Shown: positions 7,307 through 20,258 of the stretch, in pieces
Numbering within the stretch: position 1 is the stretch's first letter
How the letters are laid out: each line of letters begins with the position of its first letter
Assembly (NCBI GenBank): GCA_019135865.1
Contig: JAGVVD010000024.1
Span: 1-64,000 of the forward strand
From: Elusimicrobiota bacterium
GTDB taxonomy: Bacteria; Elusimicrobiota; Elusimicrobia; Elusimicrobiales; UBA9959
Reading direction: 5' to 3'
Length of the DNA: 64,000 nucleotides
Made by a program: the position numbers and the translations under genes
Notes under the pieces: model-generated
What the model was told of the DNA's origin: nothing
Seen by the model: the letters and a program-made list of their open reading frames with translations, nothing else
The model's database searches: none

Positions 7307-8737
7307 ATGAACAAACTTCAATGGAAACTCGGCCTGGTCCTGGGCCTGCTCATACTCGCGGTGTGGCTGCTCTACCCCACGATAGAGTGGTACACCAAGA
7401 CGCAGGACGAGCGCGGCAAGCTCGAGTCCGTGCGCCTGCGCCCCAAGCGCATCCTTAACCTCGGCCTCGACCTGCGCGGCGGCACCCACATGCTGCTCGA
7501 GCTCGACGTCGAGAAGCTCGAGAAAAAAGAGACCCTGGCCGACGCCATGGCCCGCGCCATCGAGATCATCCGCAACCGCGTCGACCAGTACGGCGTGGGC
7601 GAAGTCCCGATAGCCCGCCAGGGCGACCGCTGGATCTCCGTCGACCTGCCCGGCATCTCCAACACCGAGGAGGCCGAGAACCTGATCGGCAAGACGGCGC
7701 TGCTGGAGTTCCGCCTGACCAACGACGGCCCCGAGGCGATGAAGGTCCTGGAGAAGGTGGACGCCCTGGGCGAATCCCCCTTCAAGAAGGACGGTTCGCT
7801 CAAGCCCGAGATAGCCAAGGTCATACCCAAAGGCCTGGTCCTGGCCAAGGCCGCCGCCGGCGAGGACGCCAGGCAGAGTTACTATGTGCTGGAAGCCACG
7901 GTCCCGCTGACCGGCGCCTACCTGGAGAACGCCCGCGTCGAGACCGACGCCCAGTTCGGCTATCCCAACATCGGTTTCACGTTCAACAAGGAGGGCGGCC
8001 GGATCTTCGAGCGTTTCACCGGCGCCAATGTCAACCGCAACCTGGCGATAGTCCTCGACGGCGTGGTGCACTCCGCCCCGGTCATCAAGACCCGCATCGG
8101 CGGCGGCACCGGCGTCATAGAGGGCAACTTCACCATGCAGGAGGCCCGCAACCTGGCGATAGTCCTGCGCGCCGGCGCCCTGCCTGCGCCGGTCAACATA
8201 ATAGAGAAGCGCGTGGTGGGCCCGAGCCTCGGAGAGGACTCCATCAAGAAGGGCCTGACGGCCTCGCTGATAGGCTTCCTCTTCGTCTTCGTCTTCATGA
8301 TGGTCTACTACCGCGCCGGCGGTTTCGTCGCCGGCCTGGCGCTGGGGCTCAACTTCGTCTTCCTGGTCGCCGCGATGAGTTACTTTGCCGCCACGCTGAC
8401 GCTGCCCGGCATCGCCGGCATGATCCTGGCCCTGGCCATGGCCATCGACGCGAACGTGCTGATCCTGGAGCGCATGCGCGAGGAAATGGCGCTGGCCAAG
8501 CCGCTGGCGATGGTCATCCCGACCAGCTACGACAAGGCCTGGAGCGCCATCTTCGATTCCAACGTTACCACCTGGATAGCGGGCATCTTCCTCTTCCAGT
8601 TCGGTTCCGGCCCGGTCAAGGGCTTCGCCGTGACGCTGACCATCGGTCTGCTCATCGGCGTGTTCACCTCCGTGTTCATCACGCGGGCCATCTACGACTT
8701 CTGGCTCACGTCCAATCCCAAGGAGCTCAGCATATGA
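7307..8737 (+). CDS. secD: Protein translocase subunit SecD
   Basis: SecD, with SecF, uses the proton gradient to pull exported proteins through SecYEG. The 476-residue sequence has an N-terminal helix, the GLDLRGGTHML motif, the periplasmic P1 region, and five C-terminal helices with the AMAIDANVLILERMREE segment carrying the functional aspartate. It is shorter than E. coli SecD but within the range seen in other phyla. It overlaps secF by ATGA. Confidence 0.96.
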   Translation: MNKLQWKLGLVLGLLILAVWLLYPTIEWYTKTQDERGKLESVRLRPKRILNLGLDLRGGTHMLLELDVEKLEKKETLADAMARAIEIIRNRVDQYGVGEVPIARQGDRWISVDLPGISNTEEAENLIGKTALLEFRLTNDGPEAMKVLEKVDALGESPFKKDGSLKPEIAKVIPKGLVLAKAAAGEDARQSYYVLEATVPLTGAYLENARVETDAQFGYPNIGFTFNKEGGRIFERFTGANVNRNLAIVLDGVVHSAPVIKTRIGGGTGVIEGNFTMQEARNLAIVLRAGALPAPVNIIEKRVVGPSLGEDSIKKGLTASLIGFLFVFVFMMVYYRAGGFVAGLALGLNFVFLVAAMSYFAATLTLPGIAGMILALAMAIDANVLILERMREEMALAKPLAMVIPTSYDKAWSAIFDSNVTTWIAGIFLFQFGSGPVKGFAVTLTIGLLIGVFTSVFITRAIYDFWLTSNPKELSI

Positions 8738-9627
8738 TAAAGCTCGTCGGCAAGACCAACATCGACTTCGTAGGCAAGCGCTTCGCCTTCTTCGGGCTCT
8801 CGGCCGCCGTCATACTGGCCGGGATCATCTCCCTGTCGGTGAAAGGCATCAACCTGGGCCTCGACTTCACCGGCGGCACGCTGTTGCAGGTGGCCTTCGA
8901 ACAGCCCGTGGCCATAGGCCAGGTGCGCAAGGCGATGTCCGACGCCGGGATAGAGGCGGTCATACAGAGCTACACCGGCCGCAACGCCTACTCGGTGCGC
9001 GTGAAGGGCAAGCAGGACAACGTCAACGAGGTCGCCAACCGCATCATCAAGGGCTTCGAGACCGCCTTCCCGGGCAACAAGTACACCGAGGAGAAGCGCG
9101 ACTATGTCGGCCCCGTGGTGGGACGGGACCTGGCCAAGAAGGCCATGTTCGCGATCATCCTCTCGCTGTTCGGCATCATCATCTACGTCGCGTTCCGGTT
9201 CTCCAACCCGATCTGGGGCGCCGCCGGCGTCCTGGCACTGGCGCACGACGTCTTCGTGACGATGGGCGCCCTTTCGATAACGAACCGCGAGATAGACCTG
9301 GTGGTCGTAGCGGCCCTGCTGACGATAGCCGGCTACTCCATAAACGACACCATCGTCATCTTCGACCGCATGCGCGAGAACATCCGCAAGTTCCCGAAGA
9401 TGCCCCTCGGCCAGCTCATAAACGTCAGCGTCAACGAGACCGTCTCCCGTACGATCATCACCAACCTGACCGTGCTGGCCGTGGTCCTGATACTGTTCGT
9501 CTTCGGCGGCGACGTCATCAACAACTTCGCTTTCGCCATGCTGATAGGCAGCATAGCCGGGACCTATTCCACGATGGCCATAGCCACTCAGATGGTCTAT
9601 CAGTGGGAGAACAAGTCGCGCAGGTAG
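8734..9627 (+). CDS. secF: Protein translocase subunit SecF
   Basis: The 297-residue partner of SecD has the motif GLDFTGGTLLQV near residues 45-56 and six predicted membrane helices, with SINDTIVIFDRMREN in the fourth-to-fifth helix region. The start overlaps the secD stop, so the pair is translationally coupled. Length is normal for SecF. Confidence 0.96.
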   Translation: MIKLVGKTNIDFVGKRFAFFGLSAAVILAGIISLSVKGINLGLDFTGGTLLQVAFEQPVAIGQVRKAMSDAGIEAVIQSYTGRNAYSVRVKGKQDNVNEVANRIIKGFETAFPGNKYTEEKRDYVGPVVGRDLAKKAMFAIILSLFGIIIYVAFRFSNPIWGAAGVLALAHDVFVTMGALSITNREIDLVVVAALLTIAGYSINDTIVIFDRMRENIRKFPKMPLGQLINVSVNETVSRTIITNLTVLAVVLILFVFGGDVINNFAFAMLIGSIAGTYSTMAIATQMVYQWENKSRR

Positions 9628-9652
9628 GCCGGCTCCCGCCGCGAGGCAGCAA

Positions 9653-10252
9653 GTGAGGAAGATCAAGAAGTTCAAGATCCCGGTCTACGCGCACGAGGTG
9701 CAGCGCAAGGCCCGCAAGGAGAAGATAGACCTCTTCTCCGTCGGCCTGGCCGCGCCCGAGCACCTGCGCGAGTTCTGCGCTTCCCTGTTCCACGACTGCG
9801 AACCGGCCACCGTCTTCGACCACGCGCGGGAGGATCTCCCCGAAATGAAGGAGAAGGGCTCCCCCGGCCGGACCGTGGGGGTCATGACCCTCGGCTCCGG
9901 CCTGGAAACGAAGGCCGCGGGCATGCAGGGCGACATGGCCCGCCTGGCGGAGATCGCGGCCGGGGTTTTCCTCGAGACGGGCCTTAAAGTGGTGGCCGAC
10001 CTGGCGGCGCAGGAAGCCGGCGCCGAGGGCTTCGACCTGGGCGAACCGGAACTCCGGGCCGCCCCCTGGCTCGACGCGTCCGGGGCAGATCTCCCCTCGC
10101 TGCTGGCCCCGCTGGACGCGGCCAAGATAGGCGTTTCGGCCGGGAACGGAGCGCTGAGCCCCAGGCATACCCTCGTTTTTTCCATACCGTGGCTGGACCG
10201 CAAGAAGAAGGAAAAAGAGAAGAAGGCCGTGAAGCCGGGCGATAAAAAATGA
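9653..10252 (+). CDS. Small protein resembling the MetH activation domain
   Basis: The 199-residue protein starts with GTG; no membrane segment or signal peptide is visible. Residues about 75-115 (VGVMTLGSGLE through FLETGLKVVADL) and about 140-180 (LPSLLAPLDAAKIGV, then GALSPRHTLVFSI) follow the layout of the B12-dependent methionine synthase activation domain, which binds SAM and helps reductive reactivation. The C-terminus is a lysine-rich tail. It lies 25 bases after secF and overlaps the DUF374 gene by ATGA. The assignment is by motif memory only; no methionine synthase is encoded in this window. Confidence 0.5.
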   Translation: MRKIKKFKIPVYAHEVQRKARKEKIDLFSVGLAAPEHLREFCASLFHDCEPATVFDHAREDLPEMKEKGSPGRTVGVMTLGSGLETKAAGMQGDMARLAEIAAGVFLETGLKVVADLAAQEAGAEGFDLGEPELRAAPWLDASGADLPSLLAPLDAAKIGVSAGNGALSPRHTLVFSIPWLDRKKKEKEKKAVKPGDKK

Positions 10253-10902
10253 CTTCCGGCCCAGCAGCCGCGCCTGCCGTTCCCCTTTCAAGCCGCGCCC
10301 TCTCCCTGCTGATATACCTTTACATGCGCCTGGTGTACGCCACAGTGCGCCTGGTCACCCCCCCGCCCCCTAAAGAGTTCCCGCAGTCGGTGCTGGTCCA
10401 CTGGCATCATCAGCTGGCCTACTGCATCTGCGCCCACCGCGGCAGGCGGGTCGCCGCGCTGGTCAGCCGCAGCTCGGACGGCGAGTTCATAAACGGCGCG
10501 CTGCGCCTGCTGGGTTACGAGACGGTACGCGGGTCGAGCAGCAAGGGCGCCGCCCGGGCCCTTATACTGCTGCTGCGCAAGGCCGGGGAAGGCTTTTCCC
10601 TGGCCATGACCCCCGACGGCCCGAAAGGCCCCGCGCGCAAGGCCCAGCCCGGCGCGCTGTACCTCGCCCAAAAGACGGGCCTGCCGATACTGCCCATCTC
10701 CTGCGCCACGGCCTGGCGCATAGTCTTCAATTCCTGGGACAGATTCAATTTCCCGCTGCCCTTCAGCCGGGCCGCAATAGTTTACGGGGAGCCGCTGCGG
10801 GTCGGAACGGGCGACGACCTGGAAGACGCCGCCCGCGAACTGGAGCGCCGCCTCGACGGGGCCTGCGCGGAAGCGGAAAGAGCGCTCGGGAGGGCCGGAT
10901 GA
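10249..10902 (+). CDS. DUF374 lysophospholipid acyltransferase-like protein
   Basis: The 217-residue protein matches the DUF374 branch of acyltransferases. HWHHQLAYC, SRSSDGEF, GSSSKGAARAL, TPDGPKGP and LPILPIS mark the acceptor and donor regions. Members often sit next to Kdo transferase genes and are proposed to acylate lipid A precursors. Here the gene overlaps waaA by ATGA, which supports a lipid A role. The precise substrate is not known. An N-terminal hydrophobic stretch (about residues 14-35) may anchor it to the membrane. Confidence 0.85.
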   Translation: MTSGPAAAPAVPLSSRALSLLIYLYMRLVYATVRLVTPPPPKEFPQSVLVHWHHQLAYCICAHRGRRVAALVSRSSDGEFINGALRLLGYETVRGSSSKGAARALILLLRKAGEGFSLAMTPDGPKGPARKAQPGALYLAQKTGLPILPISCATAWRIVFNSWDRFNFPLPFSRAAIVYGEPLRVGTGDDLEDAARELERRLDGACAEAERALGRAG

Positions 10903-12167
10903 CGGCCAGGGCGATGTATCTGCTCTACAACCTGGTCTCGCCGCTGCTGGCGCTGGCTTTCCTGGCCGGCTTCGCGCTCTCCCCCCGGCGCCGGCTTCTT
11001 GGCAACCTCTTCAAGGAACTCGGCGAGCGGCTCACCCCCTCGATGGAGAAGCTGCCGGGCCGGCCGGTCTGGATACACGCCGCCTCCGTCGGCGAGGTCC
11101 GCTCCCTGCCGAAACTGGCCGCCGCGCTGAAAGAACGGATGCCGGACGCTCCGCTGCTTATCACCTGCTCGACCTGGGCCGGGCGCAAAGAGGCGCTCAA
11201 GCTCACGCCCCACGCCAGGCTGCTGCCGCTGGACTTCTACCCGCTGATGCGCGCCTTCTGCCGCGCCGCCAACCCCTCCCTCCTCCTGATAGCCGAGACC
11301 GAGATCTGGCCGGGCCTGGTCCTCTGCGCGCGGCAGAGGGAAGCGAAGGTCTTTTTCATGAACGCCAGGATGTCGGCCCGCAGCTTCGGCTCCTACCGCC
11401 TCCTCCGCCCCATACTCTCGTGGACGCTCTCCATGGCCGACGGCGTGCTGGCCCAGACGCCGGAAGACGCTGAGCGCTACGGCCATTTCCTGCCGCCCGG
11501 CCGCAGGGCGGAGGTGACCGGCAACATAAAGTACGATCTTGTGGAACCCGACGCCTCCAAAGAGGCGGAGATAAAGGAAGGGCTGCGGCGGGCCGGCTTC
11601 GCCGGCAAACCCGTCTTCTGCGCCGCCAGCACCCACCCGCTCGACGAGGAAGCCGTCCTCGGGGCCTTCTGCGCCGCCAGGGAGTCGCGCCACGAGCTCA
11701 AACTCCTGCTGGCGCCCCGCCACCCGGAGAGGGCGGCCGACGCGCTCAAAGCGGCGGCCGGAGCGGGCTTAAAATGCCTGCGCTGGCGGGACAGGGACTC
11801 CTGGAGCGGCGAAGGCGACTGCCTCCTCATGGACGAGCTGGGCTGGCTGGCGGGTTTCTATCCTTTCTGCGAGGCGGTCTTCGTCGGCGGCACCATAGCC
11901 CCCGTCGGGGGCCACAACCTGCTGGAGCCCGCGGCGGCCTCGAAGCCGGTGTTCTTCGGCAGGAACTACGCCAACGCGCTGGTCGCCGGCAGGGCCCTGC
12001 TCTCCTCCGGCGGCGGCTTCCTGGCCGCCGACGGCGACGAGCTGGCGGCCCGCCTCAAGGTACTGCTCCATTCCCCCACTTTCTCGGCCACCGCCGGAAA
12101 AAAAGCCCTGGAGGCCTTGCGAAGCCTCCAGGGCGCCACCGAAAAGACGCTCGGCTCGGTTATTTGA
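10899..12167 (+). CDS. waaA: 3-deoxy-D-manno-octulosonic acid transferase WaaA
   Basis: WaaA adds Kdo from CMP-Kdo to lipid IVA at the inner membrane. The 422-residue GT-B enzyme has an N-terminal membrane anchor, WIHAASVGEVRS with the catalytic glutamate, ETEIWPGL, and the C-terminal GGTIAPVGGHNLLEPAA donor-binding segment. The window also encodes CMP-Kdo synthesis (kdsA, kdsB, kdsD). Its last 70 bases contain an intrinsic terminator that serves the convergent gene on the other strand. Confidence 0.95.
   Translation: MTARAMYLLYNLVSPLLALAFLAGFALSPRRRLLGNLFKELGERLTPSMEKLPGRPVWIHAASVGEVRSLPKLAAALKERMPDAPLLITCSTWAGRKEALKLTPHARLLPLDFYPLMRAFCRAANPSLLLIAETEIWPGLVLCARQREAKVFFMNARMSARSFGSYRLLRPILSWTLSMADGVLAQTPEDAERYGHFLPPGRRAEVTGNIKYDLVEPDASKEAEIKEGLRRAGFAGKPVFCAASTHPLDEEAVLGAFCAARESRHELKLLLAPRHPERAADALKAAAGAGLKCLRWRDRDSWSGEGDCLLMDELGWLAGFYPFCEAVFVGGTIAPVGGHNLLEPAAASKPVFFGRNYANALVAGRALLSSGGGFLAADGDELAARLKVLLHSPTFSATAGKKALEALRSLQGATEKTLGSVI
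12098..12134 (-). terminator. Intrinsic terminator of the tail-fibre-like gene, inside waaA
   Basis: Read on the minus strand, an 11-bp perfect stem (12124-12134 with 12105-12115) with an 8-base loop is followed by seven T (12104-12098). It lies 37 bases past the stop of the convergent 12171-15893 gene and wholly inside the coding end of waaA. The T-run is on the minus-strand side only. Confidence 0.85.
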
Positions 12168-12170
12168 TCA

Positions 12171-15100
12171 CTAGTTGCAGTCAGTGTCGGTTATTATGCC
12201 GTTGGTGATGGACAGCGTGCAGCCGGCGGCCATCGTGGCCGTTCCCGTGAATCCACCGCCGAGTCCCAGATTGGTGCGCGCGTCCGCGGCGGTACCGGCC
12301 CCGGTGCCGCCGTCGGCCACGGCCAGGTCCGTGATGCCGGTTATGCTGCCTCCCGTTATGGAGACGCTGGCGGAACTCTGAGTAGCCATGCTCCCGAGTT
12401 CAAGACTGCTCCGTGCCCCGGCCGCCGTGGTGGCGCCGGTGCCTCCCCGGTCCAGGGCAAGGGTCCCCGTCGTATCGCTTATAGCTCTGGTCGCAAGATT
12501 GGCGAGCGAGGACCCGGTCTTGCTGACCGAGGCCCAGGTGACGTTATTGGTGCCGTTGATCGTGATATTGTCCGGCACGTCGCCGTCGGCGATGGAATTC
12601 CCGCCCGACAGGACGCCCGAAGCGTTGTTCTTGACGAAGCCCTGGGTAGTGAAGGCCGCTACGGTGAGGCCGTTGCCGGAGGCCAGGGTCACTCCGCCGG
12701 CGGCGCCGATGGTCAGGCGCGTGGTATCGTTGGTCTTGAAGACGAGATCCGACGAGTTTATGCTGCCCAGCCAGTCCGAGCCGCCCAGATAGTTGCCGGT
12801 GCGCTTCCAGACGGAACCGGACGTGGAGTCGAGCTTGTCGTCCACGTAGAACTTGGTCGCGGCGTCCTGGTTGGACACCGGGTCCAGCATATTACGGACT
12901 CGACCGGCGCTGTTCATGTTGAGTATGCCGGCCCGCATCAATATGCCCGAACTGGTGTCCACGCTGTAGTTCGCCGCCCCCGTCAGCCTGAAGGTGCCGC
13001 TGGAAGCCGTGGTGATGGCGCCGGTGAAGTCGGCCGGCGCGGCGACGGTGAAACGGGTCCCGTTGTCGCTCAGGATGGAACTGGCCGCTATGGTGTCCGC
13101 CGCGGACCACCTGGTGACCGCGTTGAGGGCTCCCGTCATAGCGCTGGGCGCCCCGGTATTATTGCCTTTCAGCACGCCGGTAAGCGAGACGCTGGCGGCC
13201 AGCGCCGAAGCCCCCTTGTATATGATACCGCCCTGGTCGGCGACGGAAAGGTCAGCGTTGGACCCGCCGCGCGTCAGGGCGGTATACTGCTCGGCCTGTA
13301 TCGTGTTGGCGTCCGACCAGTAGGCATTGTAATTGGCGGTGCCGGTCAGAGCGGTCATGGCGCCGGTCCCGTTGCCTTTGACCACGCCGGTGAGCGAGAT
13401 CGCGCCGGTGCCGCCGGAAGGGACGGTCAGCGGGGTGCGCAGGTTCAGCGCGCCGGCCGCGGTGAAGGTCGATTTCTGGGCGCCGGCGCCGAACCGGGCG
13501 TCCCCGTTGACGTCGAACTTCGTCTGCGGGGAAACGGTGCCCACCCCGGTCCTCCCGGAGGCGGCGGTGGAGAGATGGACGTCCCCGGATATTATGGCCG
13601 CGGCCAGTTCCACCGGGATGGCCGACCTCTGGACTATGCCCTGGTCCACCACCAGGCTGCCGGCCACGAGCAGGTCGTCCTGGCCGTTGGTGTCGTAACT
13701 GCCCACGAACGGCGCGCCGATCACCATATCGCCGCCGCGCAGATGCAGTCTTGAGATCGGGGAGGCGTGTCCCACGCCCACGCGCCCGGAGATATCGACG
13801 AAAATGCCGTCGGCGGCCCCGGACTTGATTATGACGCTGCCGCTGCCGCCGAGGCCGGCCTGGACCAGCGCGTCGGAGAGGCTGGAAATGGAAGTGGCCG
13901 CCGTGGCGCTGTTGGTGGAGGCGATGATGGTGCCGTCCGGGAAGATCAGCGGGCCGGAGAGGAGGCGTATGCCGCCGTCGACGTTGAGCTGCCAGGTCGG
14001 GTCCGCGCTTATCTGCGCGCCCATGGAGACGTCGCCGCTCTGGTTCACGAAGATCGCCGGGTTCCCGCTTTCGCCCGGGGAGACCCAGACGGGGCTGTTC
14101 TGTATGCGGAACTGGGAGCTGGTTATGAGCGCCCGCGTGGTACCGGCCACCGTGAAGGCCATGGCGCCGGCCCCGGCCGTACGGATCCCGCCCGTCTCCT
14201 GCGACCCCCGCCAGAGCCCTATCCTGGCATCGGCGTCGGCGCCGCCCACCACGTAGAGGGCCGCGGGATGGTTCTGGTAGGCGGGGATGCTGTCGCCTAT
14301 CTGCAGGTATCTGTCGTTGACGCCCAGGCCGAAGTCGAAATTCAGCACTCCCACCCCGAGACGCGAGGCCACCAGCGCGTCCGTGGAAACGGTGAGGAGC
14401 TCGGAGAAGACGTTCTTCCCTTCGAAGGTCTGATCGTCGGAAAGATAGGCCGGCCTGCCGCCCTCCGCCCCGAGGACCTGGCCCGTGACCTGCAGGCTGC
14501 CGTAGATCGTGGTGGAGGAAAGTTCCACGGTGTTTCCGAGGCCGGTGTTCGCCTTGAGATTACCGGCCACTTCCAGCGAAGGATTGGCGCCGGTCACCCC
14601 CGAGCCGGAGAAATAAGCGGAAGAGGCTATAACGCTGTAATCCGCGCGTATCGACCCTCCGACATGCAGCTTCTGCAGCGGCGTGGCGGTGCCGATCCCC
14701 ACATTGTAAGGATTGCTCTGCTGCAGCAGCAGGTGCGTGGCGTCTGCGGCCCTAACTTCATTTGCCAGAGTAGTCCAGCCGGAAAACCCGCCGACCGAAA
14801 CGGCGTTGGCGCGCAAACCGGTGGTGGTTCTTATATCGCCTCCCACCGTCAAACGGGTATCCGGCGCGGCAGCGTTAATGCCGACATAGCCGTTCGTATG
14901 CACGCGCATACGTTCGCTCCCGTTGGAAACCAGCGCTATAGTATTATTGGTCTCGCCTATGGCGATATATTCGTCGTTAGCGCCGATGACCCGTCCCCCT
15001 TTGACCCATATATTGGGATTGAACGGGACCGGGCCGCCGGAGCGCTCCGAAACGCCCCAGGTGCTCACCACCACGGTGCCGTCCACGTCCAGCTTGGCTC

Positions 15101-15893
15101 CGGAGATGGCGGTGGGATCGGATATCGCCGCCGGGCCCACGGAGAACAGGCCGTTGTTGGCGTTGTCGAAGAGCCTCATGCGCTCCACGTTGGCGGTGAG
15201 AAAGCGCAGATTCCCGTCGCCGTCGGCGCCGGCGGACAACGCGGAATCGTTATTGGAGGTCACTCCGCCGACGGCTTCTCCCACTCCCGCCTCGGTCATG
15301 CAGGAAAGGGTTGCGGGACCGCCGCTCTGGAAACAAAGCTGGCTGGCCGGACCGCTTATCATGACGCGCCCGTTCACCGTCAGTTTGTCCGTGGCGTTAA
15401 TGGTGCCTATGGCCACATTGCCCGAGCTGGTGGCCAGGTACACGCTGTAGGCCGCCGTCGCCGAGCTGAAACCGACGCTGGCCCCGTCCTCGAGTTTTTT
15501 GGCGATATAGGAATAGACGACGCTGTTTATCTTCTCGCGGGGAGAAAGCGTCTCGCTTTCCACCTCCACTTCCAGGTACTTCGCCGAACCGGAGGAAAAG
15601 ACGCTGACCGGAGGTTCGAGGAGGGCCGTGAACATGCCCTGCACGGCCTGCACGGTTATCTCGGAGGGGTTCTGCCAGAGCAGATTGCCGCCGGTCGGGG
15701 CGTCGTAGACGCGGAAATAAAGGTGCACGGTGCCCGTGACCGGGGAATTATCCCTTTCCAGCCTGCCCTGGTAGTTTATGGTGCCGGGAACGGCTCCCGG
15801 CGAGATCTCGCCGCCCGTGGGGAAAGTAGCCGCAGGGGAAGGAGCCACGCTCCCGAGAAATATGGCCAGAACCGCCGCTGCTGTTTTTTTCAT
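12171..15893 (-). CDS. Large secreted protein with phage-tail-fibre-like repeats
   Basis: The 1240-residue product has a signal peptide (1 to about 22). An N-terminal domain follows (about 35-135) containing INYQGRL and VHLYFRVYDAPTGG. A long region then repeats a V-G-I-G-T-x-x-P-x-x-K-L-x-V-x-G pattern (for example near residues 155, 337, 397, 710 and 780). The C-terminal third has GGTGA-type repeats (RGGTGATTAAGARSSLEL, DGGTGAGTAADARTNLGL) known from phage tail fibres. No S74-type chaperone domain is seen at the end (ITDTDCN). It is likely a cell-surface fibre or adhesin; the binding target is unknown. The FlgD-like protein gene lies 22 bases upstream on the same strand. Confidence 0.75.
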   Translation of the reverse strand: MKKTAAAVLAIFLGSVAPSPAATFPTGGEISPGAVPGTINYQGRLERDNSPVTGTVHLYFRVYDAPTGGNLLWQNPSEITVQAVQGMFTALLEPPVSVFSSGSAKYLEVEVESETLSPREKINSVVYSYIAKKLEDGASVGFSSATAAYSVYLATSSGNVAIGTINATDKLTVNGRVMISGPASQLCFQSGGPATLSCMTEAGVGEAVGGVTSNNDSALSAGADGDGNLRFLTANVERMRLFDNANNGLFSVGPAAISDPTAISGAKLDVDGTVVVSTWGVSERSGGPVPFNPNIWVKGGRVIGANDEYIAIGETNNTIALVSNGSERMRVHTNGYVGINAAAPDTRLTVGGDIRTTTGLRANAVSVGGFSGWTTLANEVRAADATHLLLQQSNPYNVGIGTATPLQKLHVGGSIRADYSVIASSAYFSGSGVTGANPSLEVAGNLKANTGLGNTVELSSTTIYGSLQVTGQVLGAEGGRPAYLSDDQTFEGKNVFSELLTVSTDALVASRLGVGVLNFDFGLGVNDRYLQIGDSIPAYQNHPAALYVVGGADADARIGLWRGSQETGGIRTAGAGAMAFTVAGTTRALITSSQFRIQNSPVWVSPGESGNPAIFVNQSGDVSMGAQISADPTWQLNVDGGIRLLSGPLIFPDGTIIASTNSATAATSISSLSDALVQAGLGGSGSVIIKSGAADGIFVDISGRVGVGHASPISRLHLRGGDMVIGAPFVGSYDTNGQDDLLVAGSLVVDQGIVQRSAIPVELAAAIISGDVHLSTAASGRTGVGTVSPQTKFDVNGDARFGAGAQKSTFTAAGALNLRTPLTVPSGGTGAISLTGVVKGNGTGAMTALTGTANYNAYWSDANTIQAEQYTALTRGGSNADLSVADQGGIIYKGASALAASVSLTGVLKGNNTGAPSAMTGALNAVTRWSAADTIAASSILSDNGTRFTVAAPADFTGAITTASSGTFRLTGAANYSVDTSSGILMRAGILNMNSAGRVRNMLDPVSNQDAATKFYVDDKLDSTSGSVWKRTGNYLGGSDWLGSINSSDLVFKTNDTTRLTIGAAGGVTLASGNGLTVAAFTTQGFVKNNASGVLSGGNSIADGDVPDNITINGTNNVTWASVSKTGSSLANLATRAISDTTGTLALDRGGTGATTAAGARSSLELGSMATQSSASVSITGGSITGITDLAVADGGTGAGTAADARTNLGLGGGFTGTATMAAGCTLSITNGIITDTDCN

Positions 15894-15915
15894 ATAAAAC
15901 CCCTGTCTTCCGCTT

Positions 15916-16446
15916 TTATCTGACGATGACCAGTTTTCCTGTCTTCGCGCTGCCGCCGCCTTCCAGGTGGTAGATATAAAGTCCGCTCACGACGGTACGC
16001 CCGTCCTCGTTCTTAAGGTCCCAGGGCATGTTGTCCAGATTGCCGGTCTTCTTCAGCGTGCGCACAAGTTCCCCGGAAAGCGTGTAGATCCTTATCGTGC
16101 CCGTGATCGTCAGGCGGGTGAAATTGACGGACGTGCAGCCCTTCTTGCGGCTGCAGGGATTGGGGAAGGCGTGGGCGGTGCTCATAGTGAGCTGGGGCGG
16201 CCTGGAGGCGTTGATCACGCCCCAGGCCACGGTGTACCTGGAACCGGAAGAGCCGGAGAGCCCTACCGACGAGAGGGTGCCGAGCAGCGAGTAGCCGGCC
16301 CCGGTCTTTATTTCGGAATTCGCCAGCCCGACTATCTCGGTCATCACCGTCCGGTACGACTCGCCCGTCATGAGGGAGAACGCGGAATGGTAGAACAGGA
16401 AAAGGGCGGCGAATCCGGCGGCAGACCCGGCCGACAGGCGTTTCAT
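15916..16446 (-). CDS. Secreted protein with FlgD-like/sorting-type C-terminal domain
   Basis: The 176-residue protein begins MKRLSAGSAAGFAALF, a signal peptide, in the frame whose ATG overlaps the stop of the upstream MFS gene (ATGA). The C-terminal 85 residues (FPNPCS, IRIYTLSGELVRTL, WDLKNEDGRTVVSGLYIYHLE, KTGKLVIVR) match the FlgD-like beta-sandwich found at the end of many surface proteins in diderm phyla, where it resembles type IX sorting domains. The middle stretch SEIKTGAGYSLLGTLSSVG is also common in such proteins. It is probably exported; the function is unknown. Confidence 0.7.
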   Translation of the reverse strand: MKRLSAGSAAGFAALFLFYHSAFSLMTGESYRTVMTEIVGLANSEIKTGAGYSLLGTLSSVGLSGSSGSRYTVAWGVINASRPPQLTMSTAHAFPNPCSRKKGCTSVNFTRLTITGTIRIYTLSGELVRTLKKTGNLDNMPWDLKNEDGRTVVSGLYIYHLEGGGSAKTGKLVIVR

Positions 16447-17819
16447 CTCCGCGCCTCCCCCGCCTTCGGGGCCAGGAGTCTGCCGAAAAGCAGCAGTCCG
16501 GCCGGGGTTACGCAGGCTATCAGCGCGTAAATAAGCCAGAGCGACGCGGGGTCCTGCGTTCCGGAGACGGGAATATACTTGTTCAGCATCGCGCCGGAAT
16601 AGAGTCCCGTGGTGAACTTGGCCATGAACCAGGGGAGGCCGGCGAGGCCCATATAGGCCCCGACCTGGCCCTTGGGCGCTATATCCGCCACGTATTCGAG
16701 GAAACGGGAGGACCAGACGGCCTCGCCGAGGGAGAAGAGGGCGACGTAGAGCAGCAGGACGTTCACGTCCGGCTGCGAGACCAGCAGGAAGGTGGTGAGG
16801 GCCGAGATGGTCGTGCCGACGATCATCATCCGCAGGACCCTGACGTTCTCCGTCATGGCGGCTATGAGCGGCACGAAGATCACGATGATGAGGGGATTGA
16901 GGCCCGCTATCCATTCGAACCGGGCGCCCACCCCCTCGGGGAAGGCGCGGAACACGTAATCCGGGAGGGTCAGGAACTGATGGGCGAAAAGGGTGCGCAC
17001 CGGCAGCAGCATGAAGATGAAGAGCATGAACCGCAGGTCGGCGAAAGGCAGGGACTTGAGGGTCTCCCGCAGTCCTTTCTTCTCTCCCTCCGAAGGAGTC
17101 TGCAGCCGCGCGGCCCCGGCCTCTACCTTATCCGTGAAGAAAAGCAGGTGGTTGAGGAGAGTGACGGCGGTTATAATGGTGCAGAACCAGTATACCCCGT
17201 CGATGCCGAGCCCCAGCCCGGATACCGCCCCCAGGAAAGGGGCGCTGAACACGTCGCTGGTGCGTATGAACGGCGAGATGAGGTTCTCGGCGATTATGCC
17301 GAGGTTCATGATCGCGTAAAGGAAACTGTAGCCCAGCGTGGCGGTCCTCTCGTCGGTATGCTCCTTGGTGCCCGCGTACATGGCCGGCTGGATCACGCCC
17401 TCCCCGGCGGCCATCACCAGCAGCGCGAACAGCGCCGCCGCCACGCGCGGCGTGCCGGCGGAGAGGTAAGGCGAGGCCAGCAGGAGCAGCCGGCCGGCCA
17501 GTACGGCGGAAAGGGAGAGGGTCATCGCCCGGCGGGTGCCGAGGCGGTCGGAGACGAAACCGCCGCCGAACATGAAGAGCGTGACGAGACCAGTGAAAAA
17601 AGAGACGCTCAGCCCGGTAAGTTCGTCGCTCATCCCGACCCGCGTGCCGAGGAAACGCGTCAGCAGCGTGAGTATGCCGAAATAGGCGATGCCGTCGCCG
17701 AAGTTGACGGCGTTGACGAGCCAGAACCCGCGGGACGCCCCGAACAGGACGCCGAAGGATCCCCTTATGCTCAGTTTTTTCTCAGCGGTTTCCAGACCTT
17801 TCCTCCCTGGGCCGGACAT
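16443..17819 (-). CDS. MFS transporter
   Basis: The 458-residue protein has about twelve hydrophobic helices and the MFS loop motif between helices 2 and 3 (GGGFVSDRLGTRRAM). The segments GEGVIQPAMYAG and GYSFLYAIMNLG recall peptide/POT-type carriers, but the substrate cannot be told. The reading frame stays open further upstream, but those residues look like antisense translation of the divergent gene; the start chosen is the ATG before SGPGRKGLE. It overlaps the FlgD-like gene by ATGA and diverges from the GT9 gene. Confidence 0.8.
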   Translation of the reverse strand: MSGPGRKGLETAEKKLSIRGSFGVLFGASRGFWLVNAVNFGDGIAYFGILTLLTRFLGTRVGMSDELTGLSVSFFTGLVTLFMFGGGFVSDRLGTRRAMTLSLSAVLAGRLLLLASPYLSAGTPRVAAALFALLVMAAGEGVIQPAMYAGTKEHTDERTATLGYSFLYAIMNLGIIAENLISPFIRTSDVFSAPFLGAVSGLGLGIDGVYWFCTIITAVTLLNHLLFFTDKVEAGAARLQTPSEGEKKGLRETLKSLPFADLRFMLFIFMLLPVRTLFAHQFLTLPDYVFRAFPEGVGARFEWIAGLNPLIIVIFVPLIAAMTENVRVLRMMIVGTTISALTTFLLVSQPDVNVLLLYVALFSLGEAVWSSRFLEYVADIAPKGQVGAYMGLAGLPWFMAKFTTGLYSGAMLNKYIPVSGTQDPASLWLIYALIACVTPAGLLLFGRLLAPKAGEARR

Positions 17820-17859
17820 CCCAATGATTCTATAATATTTCTTTCCCGGAACTAAATGA

Positions 17860-17865
17860 TATAAT
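17860..17865 (+). promoter_or_regulatory. Possible -10 box for the GT9 operon
   Basis: TATAAT lies 42 bases before the GT9 start, in the 88-base gap between divergent genes. A second TATAAT is at 17831-17836. No clear -35 hexamer is seen. A short direct repeat GGGTCGAC (around 17878 and 17890) follows. Confidence 0.35.
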
Positions 17866-17907
17866 TTTCCGTGAAAGGGTCGACGGAAGGGTCGACCTCC
17901 CCGGAAT

Positions 17908-19446
17908 ATGCCCGCTTCGCCCGCGCCGAAAATACTCCTGCTCCGGCTCTCCTCCCTGGGGGACATCATCCTCACGGCCCCCGCCGTCCGCGCCCTGCGC
18001 GAGAGATTCCCCTCCGCCGACATAAGGATGCTGGTCAAACCGCAGTTCGCGCAGGCCGCGGGCGCCAACCCCTCTCTCTCGGGAGTCCTCGTTTTCCGGT
18101 CCCTCCGCGCTTCCGCCGCCGAGATCGACGCGCTCGGCTTCGACGTCATAGTCGACCTTCACGCCACCCCGCGCACCCGCCTGCTCTGCGCTCTCTGCCG
18201 GGCCCCGCGCAAACTGCGCTACCGCAAGGATTCGCTGGCCCGCCGCCTTTTCGTCGCTTTCCGCTTCCCGAGCCCCGCCCTGCAGCGCCATACGCTGGAC
18301 CGCTACATGGCCGCGCTGGAGCCCCTGGGCGTTAAGGCCGGGACCCACTCGCCGGCCCTGGGGGACTGGGGCCCGGCGGCCGGGGCGCGGGAGGCGGGGA
18401 AGCCGGGCGGCCCGGCGTCCCCGCCGCGCAGGATAGTCCTGCTGCAGGGCGCCTTCCTCGGCGACTGCGTGCTCACGCTGCCGCTGCTCAAACAACTCAG
18501 GGAACTTTTCCCCTCCTCTGCGGTCTCCGTCCTGGCCAGGCCCGGGACCGCCGGGGTTTTCGCCCAGGCCGATCCTTCCGCCGCCATCATCGAGGACAGG
18601 AAGCGCTCCTCCTCCTTCCTCGCCGAATTCTTCCGGCTGAAGCGCGAGCTGCAAAAGGGCGCCTTCGACCTCGCCGTCATCCCCCACCGCTCGCTGCGCA
18701 GCGCGCTGCTCGCCAGGCTGGCCGGGATACCGCGCCGGGTCGGCTTCTCTTCCAGCGCCGGCGCCTTCCTGCTCACCGACAGGGTCCCTTTTTCCTGGCT
18801 GCTGCACGACCTGGAACGGAACCTTACCCTCCTGCTGCCCCTCAAAGGCAGCCCGCAGCCCGCCTGGCCGGGACTCTCGTCGCCCCCCGACCCTTTCAAA
18901 AAGTTCGGCCTGCCGGATTCCGGGCTCTTCGGCGTCAATCCGGGTTCGGCCTGGCCGACCAAGTGCTGGCCCGCCGCCCGCTACGCCGAAGTGATAAAGC
19001 GGCTCTACGGGGAGCTGGGATTGCGGGCCGTACTGGTCGGCGGGCCCAGGGAACGGGAGGTGGCGGCCGAAGTGGAGAAGCTCGCCGGCCCCGGCGCCTG
19101 CTTCAACCTCGCCGGCCTCACCGGTCTCGATGAACTGATGGCCGTCATAAAGCGGATGAGCCTCTTCCTCACCAACGATTCCGGCCCGATGCACATCGCC
19201 GCCGCCTACGGCGTGCCCGTCGTCGCGGTCTTCGGCCCCACCACCCGCGAGCTCGGCTTCTTCCCCTACGGCGGGAGGAACGAAGTGATCGAGGAATTCC
19301 TGGAATGCCGTCCCTGCGCGCTGCACGGCTCCCGCAGCTGCCCCCGCGGACATTTTCTCTGCATGAAACTCATAACAGCGGACAAGGTCCACGCGGCCGC
19401 CGTCAGACTGCTGGGCCCGTCCGCCCTTACCGGAGGCCTTAAATGA
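17908..19446 (+). CDS. GT9 heptosyltransferase-family protein with duplicated N-terminal domain
   Basis: The 512-residue protein is about 150 residues longer than usual ADP-heptose:LPS heptosyltransferases. Residues 8-142 form one GT9 N-terminal Rossmann domain (KILLLRLSSLGDIIL). A Gly/Pro-rich linker (143-174) follows, then a second N-terminal domain (175 to about 330, RIVLLQGAFLGDCVL), and finally one C-terminal ADP-heptose-binding domain (FGVNPGSAWPTKCW, NDSGPMHIAAAYGVP). The first domain has no C-terminal partner. Catalysis is probably by the second-N plus C pair, with the first acting as a regulatory or acceptor-binding copy; that is inference. It overlaps the deacetylase gene by ATGA. 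Confidence 0.85.
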   Translation: MPASPAPKILLLRLSSLGDIILTAPAVRALRERFPSADIRMLVKPQFAQAAGANPSLSGVLVFRSLRASAAEIDALGFDVIVDLHATPRTRLLCALCRAPRKLRYRKDSLARRLFVAFRFPSPALQRHTLDRYMAALEPLGVKAGTHSPALGDWGPAAGAREAGKPGGPASPPRRIVLLQGAFLGDCVLTLPLLKQLRELFPSSAVSVLARPGTAGVFAQADPSAAIIEDRKRSSSFLAEFFRLKRELQKGAFDLAVIPHRSLRSALLARLAGIPRRVGFSSSAGAFLLTDRVPFSWLLHDLERNLTLLLPLKGSPQPAWPGLSSPPDPFKKFGLPDSGLFGVNPGSAWPTKCWPAARYAEVIKRLYGELGLRAVLVGGPREREVAAEVEKLAGPGACFNLAGLTGLDELMAVIKRMSLFLTNDSGPMHIAAAYGVPVVAVFGPTTRELGFFPYGGRNEVIEEFLECRPCALHGSRSCPRGHFLCMKLITADKVHAAAVRLLGPSALTGGLK

Positions 19447-20258
19447 CCTGTTTTATCGCGGGAGGGGCCCTGGCCGCGGCCGCGGCCCTCAGCGCCCGCT
19501 GGACCTGGTGGCGGGCGGCGAAGCCGGGCCTGCCCGTTCTCTGCTACCATAAGGTTGGGACGCCTCCCCCCGGCTCCCGCCTCAGGGACTTATGGGTCTC
19601 CCCGGAGGATTTCCGGCGGCAGATGCGCTACCTGAAGGAAAAGGGCTACGAGACGCTTCTCTTCTCGGAACTGCTGGCGATACGGCGCGGGAAGAGACCT
19701 ATGCCGGAAAAAGCGGCGGTCGTCACCTTCGACGACGGCTACGAGAACAACTATTCCCACGCCTGGCCGATAATGTCCGAGACCGGGACGAAGGGCAATA
19801 TCTTCGTCGTTTTCGATACCATAGGGAAGGCCAATCTCTGGCACGATCCCGCTTCCGAGCCCTGGGTCGGCATGGCCGATCTCGGGATGCTGAAAAAAAT
19901 GCAGGAGAGCGGCGTCGTCGAGTACGGCTCGCACACCATGTCCCACCCCAGGCTCCCCCGCCTCCCTCTCGAGGACGCCGACTGGCAGATGCGGGAGTCG
20001 AAGAAACGCCTGGAGGAGGCCCTGGGCCGCGAGATCTGCGCTTTCGCCTACCCCTACGGCGCCGGCGCCTACGAGCCGGAAGTCCGGGCCCTCGCGCTCA
20101 AATACTACGAGTTCGATTTCAGTTTCACGCAGGGAAAGACCCCCTGGCCCTGGGACCGCGGGGCCGGCCCCGTCGACCGGCTCTTCATCAAGGGCTCCGA
20201 CACGATGCTGGACTTCGCGCTTCAGCTCAGCCGCGGGCGCTCGCGCCTTTTTGTATAA
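19443..20258 (+). CDS. Polysaccharide deacetylase (NodB family)
   Basis: The 271-residue protein has an N-terminal hydrophobic anchor (about 1-20) and the NodB domain. Motif 1 is TFDDGYENN, motif 2 with two histidines is SHTMSHPRL, and FAYPYGAG follows. These supply the metal ligands of carbohydrate esterase family 4. LCYHKVG at about residue 35 is the usual lead-in. It probably removes N-acetyl groups from a surface glycan made by the neighbouring transferases; the substrate is not determined. It is coupled to the GT9 gene by ATGA. Confidence 0.88.
   Translation: MTCFIAGGALAAAAALSARWTWWRAAKPGLPVLCYHKVGTPPPGSRLRDLWVSPEDFRRQMRYLKEKGYETLLFSELLAIRRGKRPMPEKAAVVTFDDGYENNYSHAWPIMSETGTKGNIFVVFDTIGKANLWHDPASEPWVGMADLGMLKKMQESGVVEYGSHTMSHPRLPRLPLEDADWQMRESKKRLEEALGREICAFAYPYGAGAYEPEVRALALKYYEFDFSFTQGKTPWPWDRGAGPVDRLFIKGSDTMLDFALQLSRGRSRLFV

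Follow-up and report, generated by a model that had tools for sequence, protein, structure and literature searches.

Bacterial fibres that resemble phage tail fibres are common, and a study of Bdellovibrio bacteriovorus named as open the question of how the cell holds their base (PMC10769870). In the mosaic adhesive trimeric (MAT) fibres of this bacterium, the N-domain binds a surface element that 'awaits further study' (PMC10769870). MAT fibres combine a long tail-fibre-like shaft with interchangeable C-terminal tips, and those of the non-S74 subgroup possess a signal peptide and a conserved, beta-rich N-terminal domain of ~130 amino acids that has no PDB homologue (PMC10769870). The fibre described here shares this layout, the likeness being one of architecture.

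Proteins with an INYQGRL N-domain, which we take to be usually annotated as 'tail fiber domain-containing protein', have this domain and the shaft motifs in common with our fibre. Literature searches on these proteins found no account that pairs their genes with that of an anchored partner, and searches on the INYQGRL motif, and on tail fiber or type IX secretion in Elusimicrobiota, found no such pair. The partner of our fibre ends in a type A sorting domain, as does type IX cargo of this class; here, however, this domain sits on the small partner and not on the fibre, and the partner ends differ in other phyla. In the window, the whole stretch of 64,000 nucleotides of Elusimicrobiota DNA that we analysed, the gene of this secreted partner directly precedes the fibre gene, and the pairing recurs in several phyla.

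Architecture of the fibre

The fibre gene (12171..15893; here and below, coordinates are on the minus strand unless marked +) encodes a secreted INYQGRL-type tail-fibre-like protein of 1240 amino acids, as defined by its open reading frame (ORF), family searches and family orthologues. Re-reading of the ORF confirmed the coordinates, strand, length, Sec-type signal and INYQGRL motif given by the sequence-only reading. The signal peptide (residues 1–22, 15828..15893; MKKTAAAVLAIFLGSVAPSPAA), with a putative cleavage site placed by eye, precedes the INYQGRL base domain (residues 24–142, 15468..15824), which AlphaFold predicts to be a beta-sandwich with a pLDDT of 84, above 95 in the core, and a pTM of 0.71. 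Searching the PDB with this predicted domain gave no match at E<=0.001. The shaft (12264..15467), recognised by motif and profile matches, consists of degenerate VGIGT-type repeats and then GGTGA repeats, whereas the C-terminal tip (12174..12263), ending in ...CTLSITNGIITDTDCN, was delimited by orthologue comparison as one of several interchangeable types. Pfam and NCBIfam searches assigned the fibre to no family (Pfam none at E<=1).

Motif counts revealed three copies of GGTGA, at residues 827, 1150 and 1195, which are not a product of chance because none of 1000 shuffles reaches three. The strict NVGIGT motif is present once, at residue 397, and the relaxed VGIGT-type pattern twice, a number equalled by 5 of 1000 shuffles. 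The 'long array' of repeats described from the sequence alone is therefore too strong a term for the scarce VGIGT motif; with GGTGA borne out in its three copies, that observation named the right kind of repeats and overstated how many there are.

On the 3' side of the fibre gene lies a terminator-like hairpin (12105..12134) with a 13-bp stem and a T run, the strongest of the terminator-like sites, whose regional count is no higher than in shuffles. A 718-residue ORF on the opposite strand (13767-15923, +), which overlaps nearly all of the fibre gene, is probably a GC-rich shadow ORF.

A secreted partner encoded upstream of the fibre

The partner gene (15916..16446), missed by the sequence-only reading, encodes a secreted protein of 176 amino acids directly upstream of the fibre gene. 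Its start overlaps the stop of a major facilitator superfamily (MFS) transporter gene (ATGA), and 22 nt separate its end from the start of the fibre gene. The MFS gene (16443..18149), identified by domain search, is the first gene of the presumed operon; it was rejected as a functional part, since it adjoins the pair in only some relatives. Envelope genes flank the locus at 8734-12167 (+) and 17908-20258 (+), encoding SecF-like, DUF374, Kdo transferase, glycosyltransferase family 9 and polysaccharide deacetylase proteins.

Profile search combined with profile comparison revealed an SGGG/GFW-type segment in the partner (residues 29–80, 16207..16362). The C-terminal part (15922..16167) is a type IX (T9SS type A-like) sorting domain, which scores 32.2 bits with TIGR04183 against a cut-off of 23, and 19.6 bits with Pfam PF18962, under the cut-off of 27. 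In the partner orthologue at locus L149, the best PDB match of this domain is PorZ (5m11), with 89 columns superimposed at 2.1 A.

Distribution of the pair

A search for the same architecture, suggested by the sequence-only reading, found the N-domain in 143 of 295 Elusimicrobiota genomes and no match among phage records. The nearest named relatives of the window fibre come from Elusimicrobia and Elusimicrobiota metagenome-assembled genomes (MAGs). Nearly all genomes of the family carry an orthologue of the fibre, and the partner orthologue adjoins it in nearly all of them; paralogous pairs are found elsewhere. A partner is recognised at 69 of 117 Elusimicrobiota fibre loci but not at the other 48, and 33 of the 117 have a PorV-like gene; several relatives show the gene order partner, PorV-like gene, fibre.

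The window genome (2.95 Mb) contains two further fibre operons, each with a PorV-family protein over the PorV_fam cut-off. One, on contig C29 (L229), encodes a 453-residue sorting-domain protein, the PorV-family protein and a 1354-residue fibre; the sorting-domain protein possibly contains a divergent SGGG-like segment. The other, on contig C8 (L230), encodes a 567-residue protein, a protein judged FecR-like by eye, the PorV-family protein and a 2342-residue fibre. The genome also has a SprA-like ORF (E 7e-23, under the family cut-off).

Beyond Elusimicrobiota, the N-domain is common in bacterial genomes of many phyla, with one match in a MAG labelled as archaeal. Segment-bearing small genes stand beside fibre genes in Desulfobacterota-type genomes, Zixibacteria, Verrucomicrobia, Chloroflexi, a Microgenomatus-labelled MAG and others. 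These small secreted neighbours have the pattern xYxLxxxVxSGGGxxxxSxxYxLxxTIGQ...YxLxxGFW and varied C-terminal ends. The end is FlgD_ig/sorting-like at L172, with FlgD_ig over its cut-off; by eye, it is Ca-binding dockerin-like at L175, L180, L202 and L205, and a membrane-spanning basic C-terminus at L226 (3672-3827). At L203 a TSP3-like repeat falls just under the Pfam cut-off, and L200 and L228 look similar. The N-terminal part of the L226 partner, including the segment, matches NCBIfam NF058579 (the CPR-type pilus protein PamT) at E 7e-6, far under the cut-off, and we take this relation as a lead only; a literature search for PamT found no paper.

We scanned 35 genomes, all selected for carrying a fibre, with the segment and fibre profiles. 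At least 36 of 53 segment matches have a same-strand fibre gene no more than 1.5 kb away, at least 20 of them lying upstream of it and at least 16 downstream. Leaving aside seed sequences and Elusimicrobiota, at least 16 of 29 matches (29 genomes) are adjacent, where 0.22 would be expected (Poisson P 1.5e-24), the expectation being derived, per genome, from the density of fibre genes among the matches listed; these matches are partly dependent, and neighbouring genes of secreted proteins may cluster for other reasons.

A profile built from the other phyla only, run over 4707 ORFs of Elusimicrobiota loci, gave six matches at E<=0.01, all of them partner ORFs, the window partner not being among them. 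With hhalign, the window-type segment matches that of other phyla at 91% with intermediates and 8% without. On this profile evidence, the tie of the window partner to other phyla passes through intermediates.

At the 53 fibre loci of other phyla, a partner is recognised at 18 and none at 35. Short INYQGRL proteins of about 300 residues (L101, L110, L116, L119, L129, L137 and L138) have no partner recognised nearby, and several short INYQGRL proteins end in a manner that looks tail-collar-like by eye, e.g. HNNMPPYYALCYIMK. A plasmid search for the N-domain found no match. On the Rhodothermus plasmid pRMAR01 (L233), a PorV/PorQ gene follows that of a sorting-tail protein, with no fibre present.

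Proposed model and alternatives

These findings lead us to propose, at about even confidence, that the fibre is the long subunit of a surface adhesin and that the partner is a dedicated surface socket receiving its base. In this model, the partner would be secreted by Sec and would then cross the outer membrane by means of its type IX-like sorting domain, possibly through the SprA-like translocon and the PorV-family proteins encoded in the genome. Once held at the surface, the partner would receive the fibre base through its SGGG/GFW segment. The fibre, with its conserved INYQGRL base, tail-fibre-like shaft and exchangeable tip, would presumably trimerise and be left with the tip pointing outward, where it may bind a surface ligand.

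The two products might instead be secreted proteins merely co-expressed from a single envelope operon, the fibre taking another surface route without contact with the partner, which we regard as unlikely though not negligible. Many fibres have no recognised partner, as this alternative would allow. Partner and base-domain distances correlate closely (r 0.90); this correlation is not decisive, because shared vertical inheritance predicts the same, and co-inheritance alone thus accounts for it. We also modelled with AlphaFold a fusion of partner and base from L149, in which the stop between the in-frame partner and fibre was read through. The sorting domain and the base domain are each folded in the model, without a confident arrangement between them (pTM 0.46) and with the segment at pLDDT <50. 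The lack of a confident dock suits mere co-expression, whereas the model itself would speak neither for nor against folding of the segment upon binding. Against this alternative stands the pairing itself, which occurs in both gene orders, in several phyla and with varied partner ends, and for which shared secretion alone would hardly account.

Domestication of a phage tail fibre, which would have come from a prophage and been kept as a cell adhesin, is considerably less probable than the socket model. The shaft and the GGTGA part do match tail fibres: PHROG 9942 (tail fiber) at residues 323–437 with E 6e-9, PHROG 5481 (tail fiber) in the C-terminal GGTGA part with E 0.002, and the solved tail fibre 7z47 in the GGTGA stretch with E 3e-5. 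Judged by these matches, the tail-fibre resemblance is real but weak. The short relatives with tail-collar-like ends, as seen by eye, also fit such an origin. However, tblastn against 50,697 phage records found no match for the N-domain at E<=0.01 or for the whole fibre at E<=1e-5, and a pattern scan of viral contigs with a narrow N-domain alignment found no relative of the fibre. Viral structural matches to the predicted base domain are weak and of the beta-sandwich type, the best having E 8e-4 and a TM of 0.48. Among the ten ORFs neighbouring the fibre gene, PHROG recognised no phage gene, its sole match linking the MFS transporter with a family whose function is unknown; the statement that no phage genes lie near thus holds for these ten ORFs. 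The spread of the base domain across many bacterial phyla likewise argues against a prophage source. With neither a phage relative by tblastn nor one in viral contigs, and with weak structural matches, the earlier suggestion of a domesticated tail-fibre module is left unsupported rather than refuted.

The adhesin role in the socket model draws on the tips. Between same-genus orthologues, base residues 116–175 are 87% identical and the last ~100 residues 32%; throughout the fibre orthologues the base domain is kept and the last ~100 residues are diverged or replaced. Even within one genus, orthologues at a single locus have tips of different types, and the tips of two paralogous fibres in the window genome also differ, that of the C29 fibre being an FGE-sulfatase domain, which has a C-type-lectin fold. 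C-terminal tips are therefore exchanged between otherwise alike fibres. The window tip has ~30 residues with two cysteines and no known binding domain, as might suit a structural cell-coat or matrix protein whose C-terminus is a folding cap and not a ligand-binding tip, but the swapping of tips among congeneric fibres at one locus and the FGE-sulfatase tip of the paralogue make this alternative very improbable. The surface adhesin proposed by the sequence-only reading fits the conserved base and the diverged or replaced tips, surface display being the part that we infer.

Comparison with MAT fibres and implications

The tip of the window fibre, unlike those of MAT fibres, is very short, and no predation is known in the window organism. 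The C-terminal S74 chaperone-protease of the S74 subgroup is absent from the window fibre (Pfam, E<=1), which may instead belong to the non-S74 subgroup. Another difference is that a candidate gene for the surface element adjoins the window fibre. By analogy, the window system is thus a variant of MAT-like fibres, in which the sorted partner beside the fibre would be the new part. More tentatively than for the window pair itself, we suggest that the SGGG/GFW segment may be a general socket for INYQGRL fibres across phyla, mounted on each phylum's own anchor, and may represent the missing MAT surface element or its functional equivalent.

In summary, a partner gene travels with the fibre, bearing a sorting signal in Elusimicrobiota and other ends elsewhere, which makes the question of base anchoring directly testable. 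The partner gene also provides a genomic marker by which functional fibre loci can be recognised in uncultured phyla.
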